Source: an uncultured Porticoccus sp.
Lineage (GTDB): Bacteria; Pseudomonadota; Gammaproteobacteria; Pseudomonadales; Porticoccaceae
Assembly: GCA_947259505.1 (NCBI GenBank)
Contig: CAMYLT010000003.1
Span: 62,001-126,000 of the forward strand
Direction: 5' to 3'
DNA length: 64,000 nt
The notes below the pieces were generated by a model. That model saw only the letters and a program-made list of their open reading frames with translations, had not been told where the DNA came from and did not search any database. The translations under genes and the position numbers were made by a program. Each line of letters starts with the position of its first letter. The first letter of the stretch is position 1. Below are positions 12,258-22,849 of the stretch, piece by piece.

Positions 12258-14213
12258 TCAGTGCCGCAACGGTGCGACTCCGACCTGTGGCATATCAGCC
12301 AGACCAATATCCCTTGCGTGCTGTTCAAAGCCCTTGTTGCGCCAGAAGAAAGCGCCGGGCATGGTGGTGGGGATCACCAGTACGTAGAATAGTGCGCGTC
12401 CCATCAGGCTGCTGGCAACTAGCGCCAGCGCCAGCATTGTCAAACCGATGAGCCCGACAGTCGGCCCCATGTCAAACGCCGTTAATCCAACTCCAGAGAG
12501 TATTCCGAGTCCTAGCAGGCCATTTCTCAGCCAATAGCTGTTGCCAAAGGTGGTGCGTTGGACGTAGTGAGAGGCGGCGCCTTCGTGTTCCGCTGCTGTC
12601 ATATCCAGGTTGTGGCACCACAGACCAATGGCTTCGATGGCGGCACCTGCTGCAATAAGCGCGGCAAGCAGGCGAGTGGCCGGTGCGCTGTCAAGCCCGG
12701 TCAGCAACAGAGTCGGCAGTAACAGTACCCCAAGAGCGATGGTGCCGAGGGACAGGGCGTTGCCATAAAAACTGGTGGCGACTTGCCAGTGGTTCCAGAA
12801 CGGCCGCGCCGGAATACGGTAACAACGGTTCATGTAGTAGAGGCCGACAGCACCGGAAACGATGGCAAGGTAGCCGAAGGTGGCCGCCGGTGTCGCCAAG
12901 GTGTCGGGTTGGATCAGTTCGCTGACTGGCATGCCGAATAGGCTCTGCCAGAGGCTGGCAAACAGGGCGTTGGCCGGCAGCTTGCACAGCAGGTGGAGGC
13001 CGAGGAAGGCCATGAACAGGGCGATGCCCAGTCCCTCGCGGCAGACCGGTGAGTGTCTCAGGTTGTTGAAGCCGCGAAAGAAGCGCAGCGGTTTGCCGAG
13101 GTGAGTGGTGGACAGATACAGGCCCAGTGCCACCAGTCCCAGACTCAGTGCCAACAACGGGACGTACAGGGTTTGGCCGCCAAACCATTGCAGTGCTGGA
13201 ATACCCGCCTGGGCACCGAAAAAGGCGATGGCGAAGGCACCGATGGCCGCTTGTGACATCAGGGTAAACAGCACCAGCGGGTTTTCACGGGAACTGAGAC
13301 GTGTCAGGTTCCAGGCGCGACTGGTGCCCTGCTTCCTGTCCACCACCGGTTTGTAGTTACCGTCTGCGGCCTTGTGGTACTTCACCGGTGCTGAGTCGGT
13401 GCGTTTCATTTCCTCCGGCAGTTCGCGGGTCTGCTGGAAGCGAATATTTGGGCGAGTAATGCTGGGGTCGGGGAAACCGGGAATCGAAATTTTAGCCTGT
13501 TCGCGGTTTTCCGGGATGTTTTCCACCACCCCGAAGTCCAGCGCGTTGCCGACACAGGCGGATACGCAGGCGGGCTTCAGGCCGACTTCCAGGCGATCCA
13601 CACACATGTTGCACTTGGATACCTGTCCTTCAACCGGGTCCAGCTGAGGGGCGTTGTAAGGACACACCCAGGTACAGTAGCCACAGCCGAAGCAGGTATC
13701 CGGGTCCTGTAGCACCGCACCGTATTCCGCGTGCTTGGTGTAGGCGCGAGTCGGGCAGCCCTTCAGGCACACTGGGTCGTCGCAATGATTGCAGGCCATG
13801 GAGATATTGAGACGCTGGTAGTCCGGATAGCTGCCGCCCTCGACATAGCCCACCGAGCGGAAGGCCAGATGCGCCGGGGTTTCATTTTTCTCGGCGCAGG
13901 CGGACTCGCAGGCGTGACAGCCGATGCAATTATCGGCGGTAAAGAAGAAGGCGTGCTGCTTGTTGCGATTAGGGTTGCAGCCGACTTCCGGATTGTCGTT
14001 GATGAACAGCGGGCGCTCTTTCGGCAGCTGCCCTCCGGTCAGGTCCAGCAGGTCGATCTTCTGGCCGTAGCGATTGGTGTCCAGGATCGCCTTGTCGGAT
14101 AGAAAGGCATAGGGCTGTTCCTGGGTGCGGACTTCCCACAAGGTGCTGCCATCGGCTTGCTGGATTTCAATCATCTCCGGCTTGGCCGTTAGCTCTTTTA
14201 CTTCGCTATTCAT
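12258..14213 (-). CDS. Fused DmsB-like 4Fe-4S ferredoxin and DmsC-like membrane anchor
   Basis: 651 residues combining two proteins that are usually separate. The N-terminal half carries four clusters' worth of cysteines: C96/99/102/106, C141/144/149/153, C174/177/180/184 and C201/204/216/220, the pattern of DmsB/NrfC subunits. From about residue 320 to the end there are about eight hydrophobic segments of the DmsC/YnfH anchor type. There is no Tat or Sec signal, so the Fe-S part should face the cytoplasm. It starts 20 bp after the nitrate reductase gene on the same strand. The likely role is taking electrons from quinol and passing them to that enzyme; this is inferred from context, not shown. 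Confidence 0.85.
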   Translation of the reverse strand: MNSEVKELTAKPEMIEIQQADGSTLWEVRTQEQPYAFLSDKAILDTNRYGQKIDLLDLTGGQLPKERPLFINDNPEVGCNPNRNKQHAFFFTADNCIGCHACESACAEKNETPAHLAFRSVGYVEGGSYPDYQRLNISMACNHCDDPVCLKGCPTRAYTKHAEYGAVLQDPDTCFGCGYCTWVCPYNAPQLDPVEGQVSKCNMCVDRLEVGLKPACVSACVGNALDFGVVENIPENREQAKISIPGFPDPSITRPNIRFQQTRELPEEMKRTDSAPVKYHKAADGNYKPVVDRKQGTSRAWNLTRLSSRENPLVLFTLMSQAAIGAFAIAFFGAQAGIPALQWFGGQTLYVPLLALSLGLVALGLYLSTTHLGKPLRFFRGFNNLRHSPVCREGLGIALFMAFLGLHLLCKLPANALFASLWQSLFGMPVSELIQPDTLATPAATFGYLAIVSGAVGLYYMNRCYRIPARPFWNHWQVATSFYGNALSLGTIALGVLLLPTLLLTGLDSAPATRLLAALIAAGAAIEAIGLWCHNLDMTAAEHEGAASHYVQRTTFGNSYWLRNGLLGLGILSGVGLTAFDMGPTVGLIGLTMLALALVASSLMGRALFYVLVIPTTMPGAFFWRNKGFEQHARDIGLADMPQVGVAPLRH

Positions 14214-14233
14214 CTGAACGGTACCCTCTGCCC

Positions 14234-16423
14234 TTAAAAACTGCGTCGTTCAAGGTTCAATTGTGCGGCTTCGACTTGATCCACCTGCTCAATGCGCACG
14301 GCGCACTGTTTGAATGCCGGCTGTCGTGAATAGGGATCCAGCAGTCCCAGGGTCAGGCGGTTGACGCAATCGTGGAAGTGAAACGGAATAAATACCATGT
14401 CCCGGGGTACCCGGTGGGTCAGCTGTGCCAGCACCACGGCGTCGCCGCGGCGAGATACCAGTCGCACATAGGTCTGGTGCTCAACGCCCAGCGCCTCGGC
14501 CGCATCGGGATTGATTTCCATATAGGGCGTGGGGCTGAACTTGTTGCAGTTGCCGATCTTGCCGGTGCGGGTGCGGGTGTGGAAATGTTCCACCACGCGG
14601 CCGCTGTTGCACCAGAACGGGTATTTTTCGTCGGGTTTTTCGTTGTTGTCGCGGAATTTCACCGAGATCAGGTTGGTGCGGCCGTCGGGCGTCTGATATT
14701 GGCCGTCTGTGTAAAGGCGGGGGCTGCCTTTTAAGCTGTCGTCTCCCTGACTGTATGGCCATTGAATGCCCTTGGCCTGCTCGATTTTGTCGTAGCTCAT
14801 GCCGGAAATATCCAGGGTGCGACCGGCACCGATGGAGAGATGCTTCATTTCCTCGAAAGCACCTTCCGGAGTTTCCGGAAAGTAGATCTTGTTACCATTC
14901 TCGAAGCGCTTGGCCATCTGGTTGAAAATCCAGAAGTCCGGTTTTGAATCGCCATAGGGGGCGATCACATTGCGGGTCAGGTTGACGCGCCGCTCGGTGT
15001 TGGTGTGGCAGCCCTCTTTCTCGGCCCACACCGCGGCGGGCAGGAACACATCGGCGTATTCGTTGGTTTCCACGTCCTCGTAGACATCCTGCACAATCAG
15101 GAAATCGAGCTTCTCGAACATCTTGCGGATGCGTGGCTGGTTGGCCATGGAAGTCAGCGGATTGGTGGCTACCAGCCACAGGCCGCGGATCTCTCCGCTT
15201 TCAATGGCGGGGAAAATGTCGGTCTGGGTGAGGCCGCGTTTTTCCGGGAAGAAGGATTCATCGACGCCCCAAAAATTGGCGATTTCCTGGCGGTGCCGGG
15301 TGTTTTTCAGCGCCCGGTAACCGGGCAAGCCGGAGCAGGACGACCATTCGCGGGTACCCATGGCGTTGCACTGGCCGGTGATGGAGAGGCTAGTGCCGCC
15401 GGGCTTGCCGATATTGCCGGTGACCAGATTGAGGTTGTTGATGTTGGCTACGCCGTCGGAGCCGTGGGTGCTCTGGTTGATGCCCATGGTCCAGATGGAC
15501 ATGGCGCAGCCGGCTTTGGCGTAAAGCCGGGCCACATGGCGGATCATGTCCTCATCGATGCCGCAGATATGCTGTGCCTGGATGGGGTCGTAGTCCGCCA
15601 CAGTGACTTTCAACTCTTCGAAGCCGTTGGTGTGGGCGTCGATGTAGGCTTGATCCTGCAAGCCCTCGTCAAACATCACATACAGCATGGCATTGATCAG
15701 CACACAGTCGGTACCGGGGGTGATGGGCAGGTGAATATCGGCAAACTGGGCCAGCATAGTGACTCTTGGGTCGATCACGATCATCGGGAAATGGCGTTTT
15801 TCACGGGCTTCCTTGAGGCGCCAGTAGATGATCGGATGCTGTTCCGGCAGGTTGGAGCCGAAGGCCATCAGGCACTCGGTGTGTTCAAAGTCATCGTAAC
15901 AGCCGGGCGGGCCGTCGGAGCCGAACGAGCGCTTGTAGCCGGATACCGCCGAGGCCATACACAGGGTGGTGTTGCCGTCGTAGTTGTTGGTGCCGATACA
16001 GCCGCGTACCAGCTTGCCGAGGGTGTAGAACTCCTCCGTCAGCAGTTGGCCGGTGGAGACGACAGCGAAAGAGTCGCGTCCGTATTTTTCCTGAATCTCA
16101 CGGATCTTGGCGGCACTGGTATCCAGCGCCTGATCCCAGCTTGCCGGTTGAAACTTTTCCTGTTTAGTTGCGCGCATCAGCGGCTGTGAGCCACGCCCGG
16201 GTGAGTGGAACAGGTCGTGTTCCAGAATACCCTTGATGCAGAGCTTGCCGCGGTTGACGTCGGCGCGAGCATGGCCGCGACTGGTGACAATCTTGCCGTC
16301 ATCGTCGAGTCCGATTTCAATGGCGCAACCGGTAGAGCAGTAATTACAGGTGGTGTACTTCCACTCCTTGACCTTTTTAGCTGGAATCAGGATGGGCTTA
16401 CGTTTCTTGCGTCCAAACAACAT
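14234..16423 (-). CDS. nasA: Assimilatory nitrate reductase, molybdopterin catalytic subunit (short form)
   Basis: 729 residues. The N-terminal 4Fe-4S ligands are Cys26, Cys29, Cys33 and Cys62, and the probable Mo ligand is Cys155 in TTLCMASAVSGYKRSFGSD, as in NasA/NapA enzymes. The protein ends just after the molydopterin-dinucleotide domain (AFKQCAVRIEQV). Classical NasA (about 860 or more residues) continues into a C-terminal Fe-S domain, which is missing here. There is no Tat signal, so it is cytoplasmic. It stands between nirD and the DmsBC-like gene. Reduction of nitrate to nitrite for assimilation is the best call given nirBD next door; the symbol follows enteric usage. Confidence 0.9.
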   Translation of the reverse strand: MLFGRKKRKPILIPAKKVKEWKYTTCNYCSTGCAIEIGLDDDGKIVTSRGHARADVNRGKLCIKGILEHDLFHSPGRGSQPLMRATKQEKFQPASWDQALDTSAAKIREIQEKYGRDSFAVVSTGQLLTEEFYTLGKLVRGCIGTNNYDGNTTLCMASAVSGYKRSFGSDGPPGCYDDFEHTECLMAFGSNLPEQHPIIYWRLKEAREKRHFPMIVIDPRVTMLAQFADIHLPITPGTDCVLINAMLYVMFDEGLQDQAYIDAHTNGFEELKVTVADYDPIQAQHICGIDEDMIRHVARLYAKAGCAMSIWTMGINQSTHGSDGVANINNLNLVTGNIGKPGGTSLSITGQCNAMGTREWSSCSGLPGYRALKNTRHRQEIANFWGVDESFFPEKRGLTQTDIFPAIESGEIRGLWLVATNPLTSMANQPRIRKMFEKLDFLIVQDVYEDVETNEYADVFLPAAVWAEKEGCHTNTERRVNLTRNVIAPYGDSKPDFWIFNQMAKRFENGNKIYFPETPEGAFEEMKHLSIGAGRTLDISGMSYDKIEQAKGIQWPYSQGDDSLKGSPRLYTDGQYQTPDGRTNLISVKFRDNNEKPDEKYPFWCNSGRVVEHFHTRTRTGKIGNCNKFSPTPYMEINPDAAEALGVEHQTYVRLVSRRGDAVVLAQLTHRVPRDMVFIPFHFHDCVNRLTLGLLDPYSRQPAFKQCAVRIEQVDQVEAAQLNLERRSF

Positions 16424-16449: not shown

Positions 16450-16812
16450 TCAGCTATTCCTGTTGGCGAGTATCACCTGCTCGCCGATGAGTTCGACGTT
16501 GTATGCCGGGACCTTGATCTCGTCCTGTTCAACGCACTGGCCGGTGATCAGGTCAAAGTGTTGTTTGTACAGCGGTGAGGCCACCACTAGTTGCCCCTGG
16601 ATGTCCCCGACGATCCCCCGAGACAGCACATTGGCTTTGCCGAGGGGATCCCAGTTGCCGATGGCGTAGACCGGAGGCTCCTCCTCTGGCAGGTAAAAAA
16701 CCGCTACTTGTTGGCCGTCGATCAGCGCACAGATACCGGAGTTGGCGATCAGGTCATTGCGTTGGCAGATCACCTGTGTTTCGTTTGATTGAATGTTCTC
16801 GGCAGTACTCAT
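16450..16812 (-). CDS. nirD: Nitrite reductase (NADH) small subunit
   Basis: 120 residues with the Rieske-like fold of NirD but without the paired Cys/His cluster ligands, as normal for this subunit. Motifs include QVAVFYLPEEEPPVYAIGNWDP and SRGIVGDIQGQLVVASPLYKQHFDL. It starts behind a perfect AGGAGG and follows nirB by 13 bases. It works with NirB in the six-electron reduction of nitrite to ammonium. Confidence 0.95.
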   Translation of the reverse strand: MSTAENIQSNETQVICQRNDLIANSGICALIDGQQVAVFYLPEEEPPVYAIGNWDPLGKANVLSRGIVGDIQGQLVVASPLYKQHFDLITGQCVEQDEIKVPAYNVELIGEQVILANRNS

Positions 16813-16825
16813 CAGCTAAAACCTC

Positions 16826-19360
16826 CTACGCTGACTTGGCTAACAGTTGGTCGGTCTCTTCTTCGGTGGCCGGACGCGGCTGGCCGCGCTCCTGCACAAA
16901 GACGACCCGTTTATCCGCCGCGTCAGAGTTGACGAACTGGCGGAAGCGCTTCAGTTTTTCAGGATCCTCAATGGTGGTTTTCCACTCGCACTGGTAGGTG
17001 CCGACAATGCTGTTCATCTGTGCTTCCAGTTCGGTGCAGATGCCCAGCTTGTCGTCGATAATGACTTCCTTCAGGTAGTCGAGACCGCCCTCCAGGTTGT
17101 CGAGCCACACCGAGGTGCGCTGCAGCCGGTCGGCGGTGCGTACGTAGAACATCAGGAAGCGGTCGATGTATTTGATCAGGGTTTCGTCATCGAGGTCGGT
17201 GGCGAACAGATCGGCGTGGCGGGGCTTCATGCCGCCGTTGCCGCACAGGTACAAGTTCCAGCCGTGCTCGGTGGCGATCACGCCAAAGTCCTTGGACTGG
17301 GCCTCGGCGCACTCACGGGTACAACCGGACACTGCCGACTTGAGTTTGTGGGGGGAGCGTAGGCCCTTGTAGCGATCCTCGACATAGATTGCCATGCTGA
17401 CGCTGTCCTGCACCCCGTAGCGGCACCAGGTGCTGCCGACACAGGATTTCACGGTGCGCAGTGCCTTGCCGTAAGCGTGACCGGTTTCAAAGCCGGCATC
17501 GATCAGTTCTTTCCAAATGTCCGGGAGTTGCTCTACGCGGGCGCCAAACAGGTCGATGCGCTGGCCGCCGGTGATTTTGGTGTAGAGGTTGTACTTCTTA
17601 CCCACTTCCCCCAGGACAATCAGTTTGTCCGGGGTGATCTCGCCGCCCGGTATCCGGGGCACGATAGAGTAGGTGCCATTTTTCTGCATATTGGCGAGGA
17701 AGGTGTCATTGGTGTCCTGTAGACCCACGTGCTTCTCTTCGAGAATGTAGTCATTCCACAGGGAGGCGAGGATGGATCCCACCGCCGGTTTGCAGATCTC
17801 GCAGCCGCGACCCGTACCGTGATGCTTGATCAGGTCTTCGAAGGACTTGATCGACTCCACCTTGGCGATGTGGAACAGCTCCTGGCGGGTGAAGTTGAAG
17901 TGCTCGCAGATGGCGGTGTTCACTTCCATGCCGCGGGCGGCCATCTCGTCGTCGACGACATTCTTCAGCAGCGCCGCACAGCCGCCGCAGCCGGTGCTGG
18001 CCGCGGTGCAGGACTTCACGTCCGCCAGGGAGCAGCCGCCGCCGTCGATGGCACTGATGATGTCGCCCTTACTGACGTTGTGACAGGAGCAGATGGTGGC
18101 CGTGGCAGGCAGGGCTGCCGCGCCCAGCAGTGGCGCGCCGCCTTCACTGGCCGGCAGGATCATGGCTTCCGGGTTGGCGGGCAGCTCGATACCGTTCAGG
18201 TAATACTGCAGCAGGGTATCGTAGTCGGAGCAGTCGCCCACCAGCACTGCGCCGAGGGCGGTCTTGCCATCCGCGCTGACGATCAAGCGCTTGTACACTT
18301 CCTCGCGCTCATCGCTGAAGGTGTAGGAAATGGCGCCGTCGGTTTTGCCGTGGGAATCGCCGATGGAGCCCACATCCACACCCAGCAGTTTTAGCTTGGT
18401 GCTCATGTCGGCGCCTTTAAAGGAGTTGTGCTCGCCGGACAGCTGACTCACCGCCACTTCTGCCATGCGGTAGCCGGGGGCCACCAGGCCGAAGATCATG
18501 CCGCCGTAGAGGGCGCATTCACCGATGGCGAAAATATCGGAGTCGCTGGTGCGGCAGTGGTAGTCGATGTTGATGCCGCCTCGCGGACCTACTTCCAGGC
18601 CGCAATCCTTCGCCAGCTGGTCGCTGGGGCGGATACCGGCAGAGAATACGATCACGTCGGTGGCTAACGTTTCGCCGTCGGCAAAGTTCATCACCAGGCG
18701 GGTGTTGCCCTTGCCGTGAGTTTCCTCAATGGTCTGGGTGGCCTTGCTGGTGTGCACCTGCACACCCAGTGCCTCAATCTTGCGGCGTAGCATGGTGCTA
18801 CCGCCGCCATCCAGTTGTACACCCATCAGGCCGGGGGCAAACTCCACCACGTGGGTTTGCAGGCCGAGGTTCTGCAGGGCATTGGCTGCCTCCAAGCCGA
18901 GCAGGCCGCCGCCGACCACCACGCCGATTTTGGCGTTTTTGCTCTTGGCCTGGATCATGCCCAGGTCATCGATGGTGCGGTACACCAGACAGTTGGAGAG
19001 GTTGGCGCCGGGAATTGGCGGAACAAAAGGGTAGGAGCCGGTGGCCATGACCAGTTTGTCATAGCGGAAGGTGCGGCCACCTTCGGTGGTGACGACCTTG
19101 GCATCGCGGTCGATGGCTACCACGGCATCGCCAAAGTGGGCGTTTACACCCAGTTTTTTATAGTGCTCACGGGTGGTCAGGGCCAGTTCTTCTGGTTTGC
19201 GACCGGCAAAGAACTCTGACAAGTGGACCCGATCGTAGGCAGGACGGGGTTCAGCCCCAATTACAGTGATCTTCGCAGCAACGCCGGAACCGGCCAGCTG
19301 GTCCACATAGTGGTGGCCTACCATTCCGTTTCCGATGACGACGACATTGATGAGTGACAT
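16826..19360 (-). CDS. nirB: Nitrite reductase (NADH) large subunit
   Basis: 844 residues, full length. In order: an FAD/NAD-binding domain (VVIGNGMVGHHYVDQL at the start, second dinucleotide motif GVVGGGLLGLEAA near 150); BFD-like 2Fe-2S domains (CSCHNVSKGD... and CTAASTGCGGC, then the region ending in GRGCEICKP); and the sirohaem/4Fe-4S reductase domain with ligands in CVGSTWC and CTREC. It makes ammonium from nitrite in the cytoplasm. It is preceded by its own sigma-54-type promoter and a structured leader, and leads the nirB-nirD-nasA-DmsBC transcript. Confidence 0.97.
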   Translation of the reverse strand: MSLINVVVIGNGMVGHHYVDQLAGSGVAAKITVIGAEPRPAYDRVHLSEFFAGRKPEELALTTREHYKKLGVNAHFGDAVVAIDRDAKVVTTEGGRTFRYDKLVMATGSYPFVPPIPGANLSNCLVYRTIDDLGMIQAKSKNAKIGVVVGGGLLGLEAANALQNLGLQTHVVEFAPGLMGVQLDGGGSTMLRRKIEALGVQVHTSKATQTIEETHGKGNTRLVMNFADGETLATDVIVFSAGIRPSDQLAKDCGLEVGPRGGINIDYHCRTSDSDIFAIGECALYGGMIFGLVAPGYRMAEVAVSQLSGEHNSFKGADMSTKLKLLGVDVGSIGDSHGKTDGAISYTFSDEREEVYKRLIVSADGKTALGAVLVGDCSDYDTLLQYYLNGIELPANPEAMILPASEGGAPLLGAAALPATATICSCHNVSKGDIISAIDGGGCSLADVKSCTAASTGCGGCAALLKNVVDDEMAARGMEVNTAICEHFNFTRQELFHIAKVESIKSFEDLIKHHGTGRGCEICKPAVGSILASLWNDYILEEKHVGLQDTNDTFLANMQKNGTYSIVPRIPGGEITPDKLIVLGEVGKKYNLYTKITGGQRIDLFGARVEQLPDIWKELIDAGFETGHAYGKALRTVKSCVGSTWCRYGVQDSVSMAIYVEDRYKGLRSPHKLKSAVSGCTRECAEAQSKDFGVIATEHGWNLYLCGNGGMKPRHADLFATDLDDETLIKYIDRFLMFYVRTADRLQRTSVWLDNLEGGLDYLKEVIIDDKLGICTELEAQMNSIVGTYQCEWKTTIEDPEKLKRFRQFVNSDAADKRVVFVQERGQPRPATEEETDQLLAKSA

Positions 19361-19580: not shown

Positions 19581-21329
19581 CTAGATCAGTTTGTGCGTTA
19601 AAAGGGTGAGTAGTAACAGGTTGCTCAACAAGAGCAGGCAGGTGGCCACCTTCCAGAAGCGAAGCGGATTGCGCTCCAGCAGGGGCAGTTTGCGCTGGGT
19701 GGTGAACGCGGGGTTGGCATTTTTGAGGTCGGCGATGAATTCGGAAAGTGCGGGGTAGCGTGCATCCGCCTTAAGTGAAGCGGCTTTTTGAACAGCCATA
19801 TCCATCCAGACCGGTACCAGTGGGTTGTGGTCATAACTGGGGGTGTACTGCAGGAGGTCAAAGTCCTTGGGGGTTTCCGCCTTATGGTATTGGGGGCCGT
19901 AGGGCAGTTTGCCGGTGAGTAGTTCGTAGAGAAGGATCGCCAGTGAGAACTGATCACTGCGGGTGGTGGCGGTGTGGCCAAGTTGGTACTCCGGTGCCGA
20001 GTAATCCCGGGTGCCAAGTAAGTTGGTGCGAGCAATGCTGAAGTGTATTTCATGGATGCCGGCAATATGAGTGGAGCCAAAATCGATAATCTTGACACCG
20101 GTGTCCGTGTAAATGATGTTTTCGGGTTTGATGTCCTGGTGCAGGGTGTCTTTGCGGTGAAAGGCTCTGAGTCCGGATGCTACCTGGGTGATAATGTTGC
20201 GGGCATCTACCACGGACAGCCTGGTTCTCTCTTTCAGTAGTTGCGCGAGGGTGGGGCCGGACACGTATTCCGTCAGGTAGTAGAGGAATTTGCGTTGGCT
20301 CGACGAGCGCAGTACTTTCACCACATTGGCGTTTTGAATACGCGAACCGATCCACTCTTCAAGAACAAATCGCTCCAGGTAGGCAGGGTCTTCCTGGTGC
20401 AGAGAGGAGGGCGCCTTGAGGATGGCCTTTTTGCCATCAGTTATATCTTCTACCAGATAGACTTCGCTGCGGGTATTCACGTGGACCTCGCGCACTACCC
20501 GCCAGTTATCCAGAATGTGGCCCTTGTCCAGTGGCGGGGGGCACGGCAGGGTGCGCAGGTGCGCAAGCGCGTCCTCACGCTCCGGCTCGCCGGTATCCTC
20601 AATGCAGACAATTTGCACGCTGAGATTGTCGTCGCTGCCAAGCTTCAGGGCCTCTTCGGTTATATTTTTGCAGCTTAGATTGTGATCGCTGCTTTGTGAA
20701 AGGTGATGCTTGAGTCGGTCGTTGGGCAGCCAGTCGTGTATGCCGTCTGTGGTGAGCAGGAAGCGATCGCCAGGCAGCAAATTAAGATGATGAAAATCAA
20801 TTTCAAGGCTGACATCGATACCAAGCGCTCTGCTCAGATAGCGATGTCCATTCCCGGCGGGGATGGCATGGTCTCGGGTCAGCAGTTCGAAATCACCATC
20901 CCGAAGTCGATAAATTCTACTGTCGCCTACATGAAAGATGTAGGCACCAGCAGACTTTAAGATGAGTCCACTAAATGTGGTGATAAAGCCTTTTTCGGCC
21001 GAAGTGTAGGATTGCCCAAGCCCGTACAGCCATCGATTAAGAGCCACCAGAACTTTGAGGCCGCTGGTCTGAATTGACCAGCTGTCATGGGTTGAATAGT
21101 AGTCCGTCAGAAACGATGTGACCGCAATCTGGCTGGCCTCCTTGCCCGCCTCTGCGGTGCTGACGCCGTCGGCAATCACGGCGACCGCACCTTTTGTGGT
21201 GAGGGTGGTTCCCTCAGGAATACGAATGCCGACAGCGTCGTCATTTTCCGGTTTGATGCCGGCGGTAGTGTGTTGCCCTACCTGAATATCCAGCCGCCGG
21301 ACTAAGTGTGAAAGCGCTATCTCTGGCAT
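19581..21329 (-). CDS. Bifunctional PP2C phosphatase and Ser/Thr protein kinase, membrane-anchored
   Basis: About 582 residues from the ATG at 21329 (MPEIALSHLV), with AGGA six bases upstream; the frame up to 21440 overlaps the transporter gene and is not needed. Residues 1-240 form a PP2C phosphatase (ADGVSTAEAGKEAS, HVGDSRIYRL, TTDGIHDWL, GSDDNLSVQ). A kinase domain follows with catalytic loop HQDIKPENIIY (Gln where most kinases have Arg), DFG in IIDFGST, and an APE-like SAPEYQ; the Gly-rich loop has lost its glycines. The C-terminus ends in one membrane helix. It lies 13 bp after the nitrate transporter, as in Pseudomonas next to nirBD. The target is unknown; the transporter or the reductases are candidates by context. 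Confidence 0.9.
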   Translation of the reverse strand: MPEIALSHLVRRLDIQVGQHTTAGIKPENDDAVGIRIPEGTTLTTKGAVAVIADGVSTAEAGKEASQIAVTSFLTDYYSTHDSWSIQTSGLKVLVALNRWLYGLGQSYTSAEKGFITTFSGLILKSAGAYIFHVGDSRIYRLRDGDFELLTRDHAIPAGNGHRYLSRALGIDVSLEIDFHHLNLLPGDRFLLTTDGIHDWLPNDRLKHHLSQSSDHNLSCKNITEEALKLGSDDNLSVQIVCIEDTGEPEREDALAHLRTLPCPPPLDKGHILDNWRVVREVHVNTRSEVYLVEDITDGKKAILKAPSSLHQEDPAYLERFVLEEWIGSRIQNANVVKVLRSSSQRKFLYYLTEYVSGPTLAQLLKERTRLSVVDARNIITQVASGLRAFHRKDTLHQDIKPENIIYTDTGVKIIDFGSTHIAGIHEIHFSIARTNLLGTRDYSAPEYQLGHTATTRSDQFSLAILLYELLTGKLPYGPQYHKAETPKDFDLLQYTPSYDHNPLVPVWMDMAVQKAASLKADARYPALSEFIADLKNANPAFTTQRKLPLLERNPLRFWKVATCLLLLSNLLLLTLLTHKLI

Positions 21330-21342
21330 CGTATTCCTAAGC

Positions 21343-22818
21343 TTAGCTGACCTCGATAAGCTGCACGGTCCCATCGGGAAGGACTTCGGTTGTATGTCCG
21401 CTGGGTTCTGTGAGCATCTGCGCAAGCAAGAATACCGCAATGGCGGAAGCGGCGATAATCAGGAAGAAGGTATGCGCGTCAACAAAGGTATAAGCGGTCA
21501 GGTAGGTTACCGCGCCCACATTGCCAAAGGCGCCTGCCATACCTGCTATTTGTCCGGTCATACGGCGTTTGATCAGGGGCACAATGGCGAAAACGGCACC
21601 TTCTCCAGCCTGTACAAAGAAGGAGCAGCACATCACTGCAGCGACTGCCAGGATAATAGGCCAGCTGCCGTTGATTTGAGATAGCACCACATAGCCTATG
21701 CCCAACCCGATAATCAATATGGACAGTGCCTTGCGGCGACCAAAACGGTCGCTGAACCAACCACCGCTGGGGCGTGCGACCAGATTCATGAACGCATAGG
21801 CGCTGGCCAGGGCGCCAGCGGCGGCCAGGCTAAGCCCTTCAAAGGTATCAAGGAAATAGCCCGGCAGCATGGAGACGACAGCCAGCTCGGAACCAAACGT
21901 GACAAAGTAGGCCCAGTCCAGGATAGCGACTTGTTTGAATTCATATTTATCACTTTCCGGGGCGCCGTGCTTCAGCATCTCCTTGTTGACCTGATAGATA
22001 TGAAAAACCTGGTAGGCGAATAACAGTACAAACAGGGCGTAAAGAATTTGGGCTGCGGTGTGGGGGATCAGGTTGGTGCCCGCGGGGGAAACTTTCCATA
22101 CCAGCACAGAGAGAATCAGGTACATCGGGATGTTCATGCAGATGTATAGCCAGAAGTCCTTTTTGCTGGTGACTTCCAGGCCGCCGGATTTTTTCGGTTT
22201 GAAATAGGTTGAACCCTTAGGTGTATTGCGTGCACGCAGGCCATAAATTACGCCGTAGATGGACGCCAGAACCCCGGTCAGGCCAATGGCGTAGCGCCAT
22301 CCATCTTCTCCGCCAAAAACGGTGATGGCGATGGTAGGCAGGGTGAATGCCGCCGCTGAGGAACCAAAGTTGCCCCAGCCGCCGTAAATACCCTGGGCGA
22401 GACCGACGGATTTGGCGGGAAACCATTCCCCGACCATGCGGATACCGATGACAAACCCGGCGCCAACAAATCCCAGCAGCAGTCGGGTTAATGCCAGTTG
22501 TTCGTAGGTTTGTGATAAGGCAAAGCAGGTGCAAAGTACACCGGATAGCAGAAGTAGGCTGGAATAAATCAGGCGTGGGCCGAATCGGTCGACCAGCATG
22601 CCAATAATGATTCTGGCTGGGATGGTCAGGGCCACATTAAGTGTGAGCAGCGTTTTCCACTGGGCAGTTGTCAGGTCAAACGCTTCCATAATCAGTGGTT
22701 TTAACGGGGCGTGGCTAAACCAGACGACGAAAGTGAGAAAAAATGCGAACCAGGTCAGGTGAAGTGTTCTGATTTTAGGGTCTCTAAAATCAAACAGATT
22801 AATGCGTAGTGTTGTCAT
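21343..22818 (-). CDS. narK: NarK/NasA-type nitrate/nitrite transporter (MFS)
   Basis: 491 residues from the ATG at 22818, with about twelve membrane segments. Nitrate-signature glycine motifs of the NNP family are present ([16 protein letters not shown] near 155 and [14 protein letters not shown] near 435). The alternative GTG at 22845 lies upstream of the predicted transcription start, which favours 22818. It heads the leftward transcript with the phosphatase-kinase gene. The assimilatory context (nirBD, nasA) suggests nitrate import rather than respiratory exchange. In Pseudomonas the equivalent transporter is called nasA. Confidence 0.93.
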
Positions 22819-22849
22819 GTGAGCGATAAAGTGAACGATGCGCACTTAA

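Follow-up and report, generated by a model that had tools for sequence, protein, structure and literature searches.

We analysed a 64,000-nucleotide stretch of the genome of an uncultured Porticoccus sp. (hereafter the window), in which a short nitrate reductase of the NasA lineage is followed on the minus strand by a gene fusing a DmsB-type iron-sulfur protein to a DmsC-type membrane anchor. The NasA-fusion pair forms a genuine module of two genes that is both conserved and widespread. Sequence and predicted structure make it very probable that the two genes encode a cytoplasm-facing, membrane-bound ubiquinol:nitrate oxidoreductase. The computational evidence comprises the linkage of the genes, their co-occurrence across genomes, conserved cluster and quinol-site residues, predicted topology and fold, and the distinct clade formed by the short NasA. 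The two genes and their parts are located as follows.

14234..16423, minus strand: short NasA-lineage nitrate reductase catalytic subunit, 729 amino acids (open reading frame, Pfam, tree and motif NTTLCMASAV)
14237..14299, minus strand: 21-residue NasA tail past the molybdopterin-binding domain, where classical NasA runs on into a BFD domain
12258..14213, minus strand: DmsB-DmsC fusion, 651 amino acids, proposed electron-transfer and quinol-oxidising subunit
13959..14141, minus strand: fusion residues 25-85, N-terminal extension ahead of the first cluster motif (mean majority identity 0.70 among 81 homologues)
13515..13958, minus strand: fusion residues 86-233, four-[4Fe-4S] domain (16 cysteines invariant in 81/81)
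12363..13280, minus strand: fusion residues 312-617, eight-helix NrfD/DmsC-type anchor (AlphaFold2, VIA-align)
13035..13112, minus strand: fusion residues 368-393, quinol-site region (alignment to E. coli DmsC)
12261..12395, minus strand: fusion residues 607-651, conserved C-terminal tail (mean majority identity 0.89)

A scan of species-level genomes returned 523 stretches encoding relatives of the fusion, of which we examined the best 80; these and the window make up the 81 loci counted below. Carriers among the best 80 include Porticoccus, Gilvimarinus, Simiduia, Polaromonas, Ramlibacter, Rhodoferax, Pseudomonas fluvialis, Shewanella, Colwellia, Thalassotalea, Zhongshania and Methylophaga. 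NasA was encoded upstream on the same strand, at 69-84% identity, in 80/80 related loci (truncated at the end of the contig in L041), and the gap between the two genes was at most 130 base pairs (bp) in 74/81. Two loci (L001 and L002) were left out of the related-loci gene comparison. An original prediction, made from the letters of the window, had suggested counting how often the fusion neighbours a short NasA across genomes, and the count came to 81 of 81 loci.

We also quantified co-occurrence in a class-level draw of 274 genomes, counting short NasA at ≥ 65% identity together with one 313-residue fragment at 69%. The fusion was present in 46 genomes (47 copies) and short NasA in 47, such that 45 genomes had both, one had the fusion only, two had NasA only and 226 had neither (Fisher p about 5e-48, without correction for common descent). 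Among the matches listed, the next NasA-like ones dropped to 42% identity or less. Fusion genomes were spread over 37 families, and presence varied within families: G184 had both genes and G043 neither in family f46, as did G204 and G077, respectively, in f80. All three one-gene exceptions (G187, G273 and G067) lay at contig ends. NasA was found ≤ 400 bp upstream of 43/47 fusion copies; elsewhere, the gap was 638 bp in G009, the fusion adjoined a contig end in G187, the genes sat on separate contigs in G186, both of them close to an end, and the remaining copy, in G015, is described below. In a phylum-level draw, 6/398 genomes carried the fusion, this one included, and the two of them outside the class encoded NasA at 61% or 71% identity just upstream. 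Prevalence depends on sampling, because this draw was made differently from that of the class. A search of 72,556 plasmid records at an E-value of 1e-40 did not find the fusion. In G365, outside the class, a second and weaker match (37.6%) to the fusion's iron-sulfur domain was observed about 5 kb from the fusion (L214:13223-13861).

The short NasA contains the Pfam domains Molybdop_Fe4S4, Molybdopterin and Molydop_binding, the last of which ends at residue 708. A Pfam scan did not find Fer2_BFD, the BFD [2Fe-2S] domain, in the 729-residue protein, in agreement with the original prediction that the reductase stops after its molybdopterin-binding domain and lacks the C-terminal iron-sulfur domain of classical NasA. 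The tail after the last domain was 21 residues long in 78/81 homologues and 24 in the other three. In a tree whose short-NasA rows came from 17 of the 80 loci, two outside genomes and the window, the short NasA formed a single clade (support 100/100) separate from classical NasA, including the genome's own, with which it shares about 35% identity. The Cys-Met motif NTTLCMASAV at the molybdenum ligand was present in 20/20 short NasA rows of the tree; a Halobaculum NasA has the same string, and Cys-Met also occurs in other NasA and NapA rows. A formate dehydrogenase identity, hinted at by the best NCBIfam match, was rejected on the basis of this motif, given that the genome's own formate dehydrogenase passes its family cut-off (750.6 versus 666.25 bits) and shows CHS at that position. 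Nitrate reductases of about 710-730 amino acids without a C-terminal domain are not unusual, examples being Bacillus NasC and cyanobacterial NarB of about 710 (PMC7331816).

The fusion matched Fer4_11 (residues 138-229) and DmsC PF04976 (48.6 versus a cut-off of 22.3 bits) within one open reading frame, as had been predicted for a four-cluster DmsB-pattern domain joined to a DmsC-type anchor. Its 16 cluster cysteines (96/99/102/106, 141/144/149/153, 174/177/180/184 and 201/204/216/220) are invariant in 81/81 fusions, and their spacing, compared by eye, is that of E. coli DmsB; the score against the DmsB family TIGR02951 (159.2 bits) was under its cut-off of 214.1. Residues S368, H371, S388 and E393 align with S62, H65, S82 and E87 of E. 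coli DmsC and were invariant in 81/81, as was the equivalent of DmsC R271. A review of the NrfD family names these five DmsC residues as belonging to the quinol site and the gate in transmembrane helix 8 (TM8), and reports that replacement of His65 stopped quinol oxidation (PMC8076601). The membrane part (residues 312-606) had a mean majority identity of 0.60, below that of the C-terminal tail, where E. coli DmsC is shorter in the alignment. We propose that this tail and the 60-residue N-terminal extension may form a docking surface for NasA. One alignment (A1) used 40 of the 81 fusion proteins.

A frameshift or chance join as the origin of the fusion was rejected, as a single open reading frame spans both halves in the 80 related loci. 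In the class draw, one or two TAA codons were reported within 8/47 fusion matches. We fetched the stretches at the 30 best class-draw places, including seven of those eight, and found one uninterrupted frame across both halves in 30/30. This check covered 30 of the 47 places, and the other 17 include G056 (one TAA) and G238 (ending at 463 amino acids).

To predict topology, we set eight helices by hydropathy in each protein and compared the number of lysines and arginines in loops and termini on the iron-sulfur side with that on the other side. The fusions had a mean of 16.2 on the iron-sulfur side versus 1.1 on the other, the former being higher in 81/81. Forty standalone anchors from the class draw had 15.3 versus 1.2 (higher in 40/40), whereas Dms-type anchors showed the opposite bias, with 2.9 versus 8.4 (higher in 0/7). 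The twin-arginine (RR) motif was present in 6/6 Dms-type A subunits examined. At the 40 standalone loci (L153-L192) an A subunit was found in 36, of which 35 had no RR motif and one (L160) fits a loose pattern. These anchors thus appear to be Soe-like rather than of the exported Dms type, judging by size, the lack of an export signal and charge bias. Within the first 60 residues, the twin-arginine motif was found in 0/81 fusions and 0/81 NasA proteins, which rejects twin-arginine (Tat) export of either protein and bears out the earlier claim that neither carries an export signal. From its charge bias, the iron-sulfur side of the fusion is predicted to lie in the cytoplasm, inverted relative to Dms-type anchors.

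An AlphaFold2 model of the fusion showed eight mostly confident helices over residues 312-617, with a mean predicted local distance difference test score (pLDDT) above 85 in 23/30 ten-residue blocks over 311-610. The best structural neighbours of the anchor in VIA-align were chain C of alternative complex III (Z 23.6) and the polysulfide reductase subunit PsrC (Z 19.0), and cytochrome bd oxidase chains matched as well as PsrC (Z 15.9-19.9). In a tree of 14 of the 81 fusions, 14 of the 40 Soe-like anchors and seven Dms anchors, the fusion anchors formed their own clade (100/99), and membership of the Soe group was rejected on this ground. The fusion and Dms rows joined apart from Soe on long branches that the program flagged, and we claim no number of topology flips from this tree.

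If the two proteins form a complex, as we infer, the anchor half would oxidise ubiquinol at a cytoplasm-side site of the DmsC type. The four [4Fe-4S] clusters in the DmsB-type half would then relay the electrons to the [4Fe-4S] cluster at the N-terminus of NasA and on to its molybdenum bis(molybdopterin guanine dinucleotide) cofactor, the reaction running towards nitrate; the short NasA would reduce nitrate to nitrite, which NirBD of the same operon would take to ammonium. The step is expected to be electroneutral, because quinol protons would be set free and consumed on the same side. Electrons from reduced nicotinamide adenine dinucleotide (NADH) would have gone through complex I first, conserving energy that the direct NADH route would spend. 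The ubiquinone potential of about +0.1 V is well under that of the nitrate/nitrite couple. The potential of that couple has been given as 433 mV (PMC10100899).

Which quinol serves as donor can be judged from the genome, in which MenD was below its cut-off and UbiA above. Ubiquinol is accordingly the likelier donor and menaquinol is not expected, with the futalosine route falling outside this test. The original prediction of a cytoplasmic-face quinol:nitrate oxidoreductase stood in part. Invariant residues, the positive-inside pattern, gene linkage, co-occurrence and the NirB of other fusion genomes, all read from sequence, favour a membrane-bound complex that has its iron-sulfur and quinol sites on the cytoplasmic side and is tied to the short NasA; the claim of a replaced donor does not stand for this genome (see below). 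The menaquinol donor that the prediction named for DmsABC is not expected here. The enzyme most likely serves assimilation, beside a classical NasA in this genome and without one in most carriers of the class draw.

The module resembles several known systems in part. E. coli DmsABC, whose donor is menaquinol, shares the DmsB cysteine spacing and the DmsC quinol-site residues, but its type has an exported A subunit, the opposite charge bias, a different catalytic lineage and unfused B and C subunits. NarGHI likewise performs quinol-fed nitrate reduction at the cytoplasmic face. NarI, however, is a haem-containing subunit whose quinol site lies close to the periplasm, and NarG is of another lineage, 1270 residues long and encoded separately in this genome. 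The classical BFD-NasA with a flavin adenine dinucleotide (FAD) reductase, as in Klebsiella, has in common with the short NasA its lineage, the Cys-Met motif and a NirB partner; the short NasA differs in lacking the BFD domain and in having a membrane anchor gene where the FAD reductase gene would be. The sulfite dehydrogenase SoeABC also has no Tat signal, DmsB- and DmsC-type parts and an inverted anchor with a quinol site predicted on the N-side (PMC8076601 and charge bias). In Soe-like loci, however, B and C were separate genes in 40/40 and the A subunit was mostly 950-1060 amino acids; the present module instead joins B to C in one protein, draws its A subunit from the NasA lineage and has anchors in a clade of their own. 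Cyanobacterial NarB and Bacillus NasC are similar in size to the short NasA, but a survey of the enzyme superfamily reports no four-cluster or anchor partner for the clade (PMC7331816); our own comparison with them was by way of the NCBIfam NasC profile.

According to the same survey, no member of the clade of formate dehydrogenase, NasA, NasC, AioA and NapA goes with canonical four-cluster and membrane-anchor subunits (PMC7331816). This rule contrasts with the fused four-cluster/anchor subunit beside NasA in 45/274 class-draw genomes and 80/80 further loci. The list of complexes in the NrfD review includes no Nas (PMC8076601). We found no account of NasA paired with a DmsB-DmsC protein in the literature searched; this excluded subscription journals and preprints, so absence is not proven. 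If our reading is true, the respiratory chain would feed nitrate assimilation in many Gammaproteobacteria, including Burkholderiales. The energy cost of nitrate assimilation and its links to electron donors would change accordingly, and short NasA proteins without an NADH reductase would gain a testable donor. A bolder and doubtful extension is that the module adds a third quinol-linked class to the Nar and Nap nitrate reductases, in which a NasA-lineage subunit sits on an inverted, fused NrfD-type anchor. Ion movement by this anchor would be possible because the TM8 gate arginine is invariant; nitrate assimilation itself could then be energy-coupled. Such a reductase would allow species whose electrons enter as quinol to assimilate nitrate with no NADH spent at this step.

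The genome encodes other routes for nitrate. Its five molybdopterin-family frames are the formate dehydrogenase, NarG (1270 amino acids; 2359.8 versus a cut-off of 1084.15 bits), a classical NasA, the short NasA and one further frame of 795 amino acids, and it thus carries three nitrate reductase types: short NasA, classical BFD-NasA and NarG. A second nitrate assimilation cluster on contig C8 (about 376100-384900, L213) holds the 907-residue classical BFD-NasA, a 398-residue NasB-like FAD reductase and the ATPase of a nitrate ATP-binding cassette (ABC) transporter (342.1 versus 291.8 bits). In view of these genes, the original prediction that the fusion replaces the usual NADH or ferredoxin donor does not hold for this genome. 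By eye, the C8 cluster also includes a permease, binding proteins and a response regulator, and NarG (G000:C8:78356-80536, L234) adjoins a NarK-like transporter. The fusion module and a classical system also neighbour each other in P. fluvialis (L024), Rhodoferax (L022) and two Methylophaga loci (L078 and L079). A BFD domain is present in the long NasA of L024, L078 and L022 (just at the cut-off in L022), and L078 also has a NasB-like reductase.

The presence of two NasA types raises the possibility that the same quinol-linked enzyme works mainly in redox balancing or ammonification with NirBD, as an overflow valve for quinol, while classical NasA assimilates where present. We regard this as unlikely, although it is the strongest of the alternatives. 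Classical NasA occurs in this genome, where it owns a nitrate ABC transporter and NarG is present too, and in 15 others of the 46 fusion genomes. Across the class draw, classical NasA was not associated with the fusion (16/46 fusion genomes versus 72/228 others, p 0.73). Against the valve reading, 30/46 fusion genomes showed no classical NasA, scoring the top few candidates per genome and calling the type by the gap in identity to the classical NasA of this genome (≥ 44% versus ≤ 38%). The count concerns classical NasA, and these genomes may have Nar or Nap. In addition, the only NirB over its cut-off in the genome is that of the fusion operon, and nasA/nirBD clusters of Gallionellaceae and Zetaproteobacteria have been read as assimilatory (PMC10734462, PMC8114936), which would count here if those nasA are of the present type. 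Two adjacent frames elsewhere (G000:C2:54101-55514) resemble NirB in its N-terminal reductase and BFD portions but score under the cut-off.

It is improbable that the short NasA is instead ferredoxin-dependent, like cyanobacterial NarB, with the fusion having some other purpose. NarB is of similar length (PMC7331816), and in Alteromonas macleodii, where a nasA mutant was unable to grow on nitrate (PMC4899447), the authors put forward ferredoxin as the donor, to be tested, and reported that they found no reductase of the NasC type (PMC12021255); this would bear on the short NasA if that NasA belongs to its clade. Against this stand the near-perfect co-occurrence and adjacency of NasA with a fusion that has its own four-cluster ferredoxin domain. 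That the pair is a DmsABC-like exported respiratory reductase with an overlooked Tat signal is scarcely credible: it has the DmsB/DmsC homology in its favour, but the motif is missing throughout, the charge bias is opposite to that of Dms-type anchors and the catalytic subunit groups with NasA rather than DmsA.

Several observations weigh against a ubiquinol:nitrate oxidoreductase serving assimilation. This genome also has an NADH-type NasA and NarG, so that the fusion enzyme may not be physiologically needed, and in the literature searched no experiment on the fusion, biochemical or genetic, was found. The short NasA clade joined other NasA rows with weak support (81/67). NCBIfam placed the short NasA under every nitrate-reductase cut-off, including NasC NF047855 (518.6 versus 1100) and NapA TIGR01706 (421.6 versus 930.55), and its top match, Fdh-alpha, was also under the cut-off; the NasC and NapA cut-offs are narrow, since the genome's classical NasA misses NasC as well (465.7). 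The AlphaFold2 model was too poor for use in the iron-sulfur half (pLDDT < 50 over residues 86-265) and low in the quinol loop (52-60 over 371-390). The gap between NasA and fusion was 283-2414 bp in 7/81 loci (L014, L015, L017, L020, L022, L025 and L072), and in G015 NasA and fusion lie on separate contigs, away from the ends and hence really apart. The proximity to nirBD, also suggested for counting, was looser than that to NasA: 40/80 related loci had no NirB match in the flank examined, but NirB was over its cut-off in 28/28 tested genomes whose fusion locus lacked one in the flank (one as a fragment). Separately, the gene after the fusion in G015 (L220:4993-7721) resembles, by eye, the molybdenum cofactor gene MobB.

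In the window, the pair ends an apparent minus-strand operon in the order NarK-family transporter, PP2C-kinase fusion, nirB, nirD, short nasA and DmsB-DmsC fusion. From the reading frame coordinates, the intergenic gaps were 13 bp between nirB and nirD, 26 bp between nirD and nasA, and 20 bp between nasA and the fusion. The other members are listed below.

21343..22845, minus strand: NarK-family nitrate/nitrite major facilitator superfamily transporter, 500 amino acids (NCBIfam TIGR00886, 324.3 versus a cut-off of 311.7 bits)
19581..21440, minus strand: PP2C phosphatase-Ser/Thr kinase fusion, between transporter and nirB (Pfam Pkinase and PP2C_2)
16826..19360, minus strand: nirB, nitrite reductase large subunit, 844 amino acids (TIGR02374, 1075.8 versus a cut-off of 578.35 bits)
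16450..16812, minus strand: nirD, nitrite reductase small subunit, 120 amino acids (named from position and homology, its homologues adjoining nirB in related loci, without a domain scan)

Homologues of the PP2C-kinase fusion were found in 13/81 loci, the window counted, and this protein is probably a regulator. A frataxin-like gene, recognised by eye, lies on the opposite strand just downstream of the window's DmsB-DmsC fusion. In 32 loci, the window not among them, an open reading frame of about 137 amino acids directly follows the fusion (e.g., L069:9991-10416), on the same strand in 31; the single one scanned had no Pfam match.

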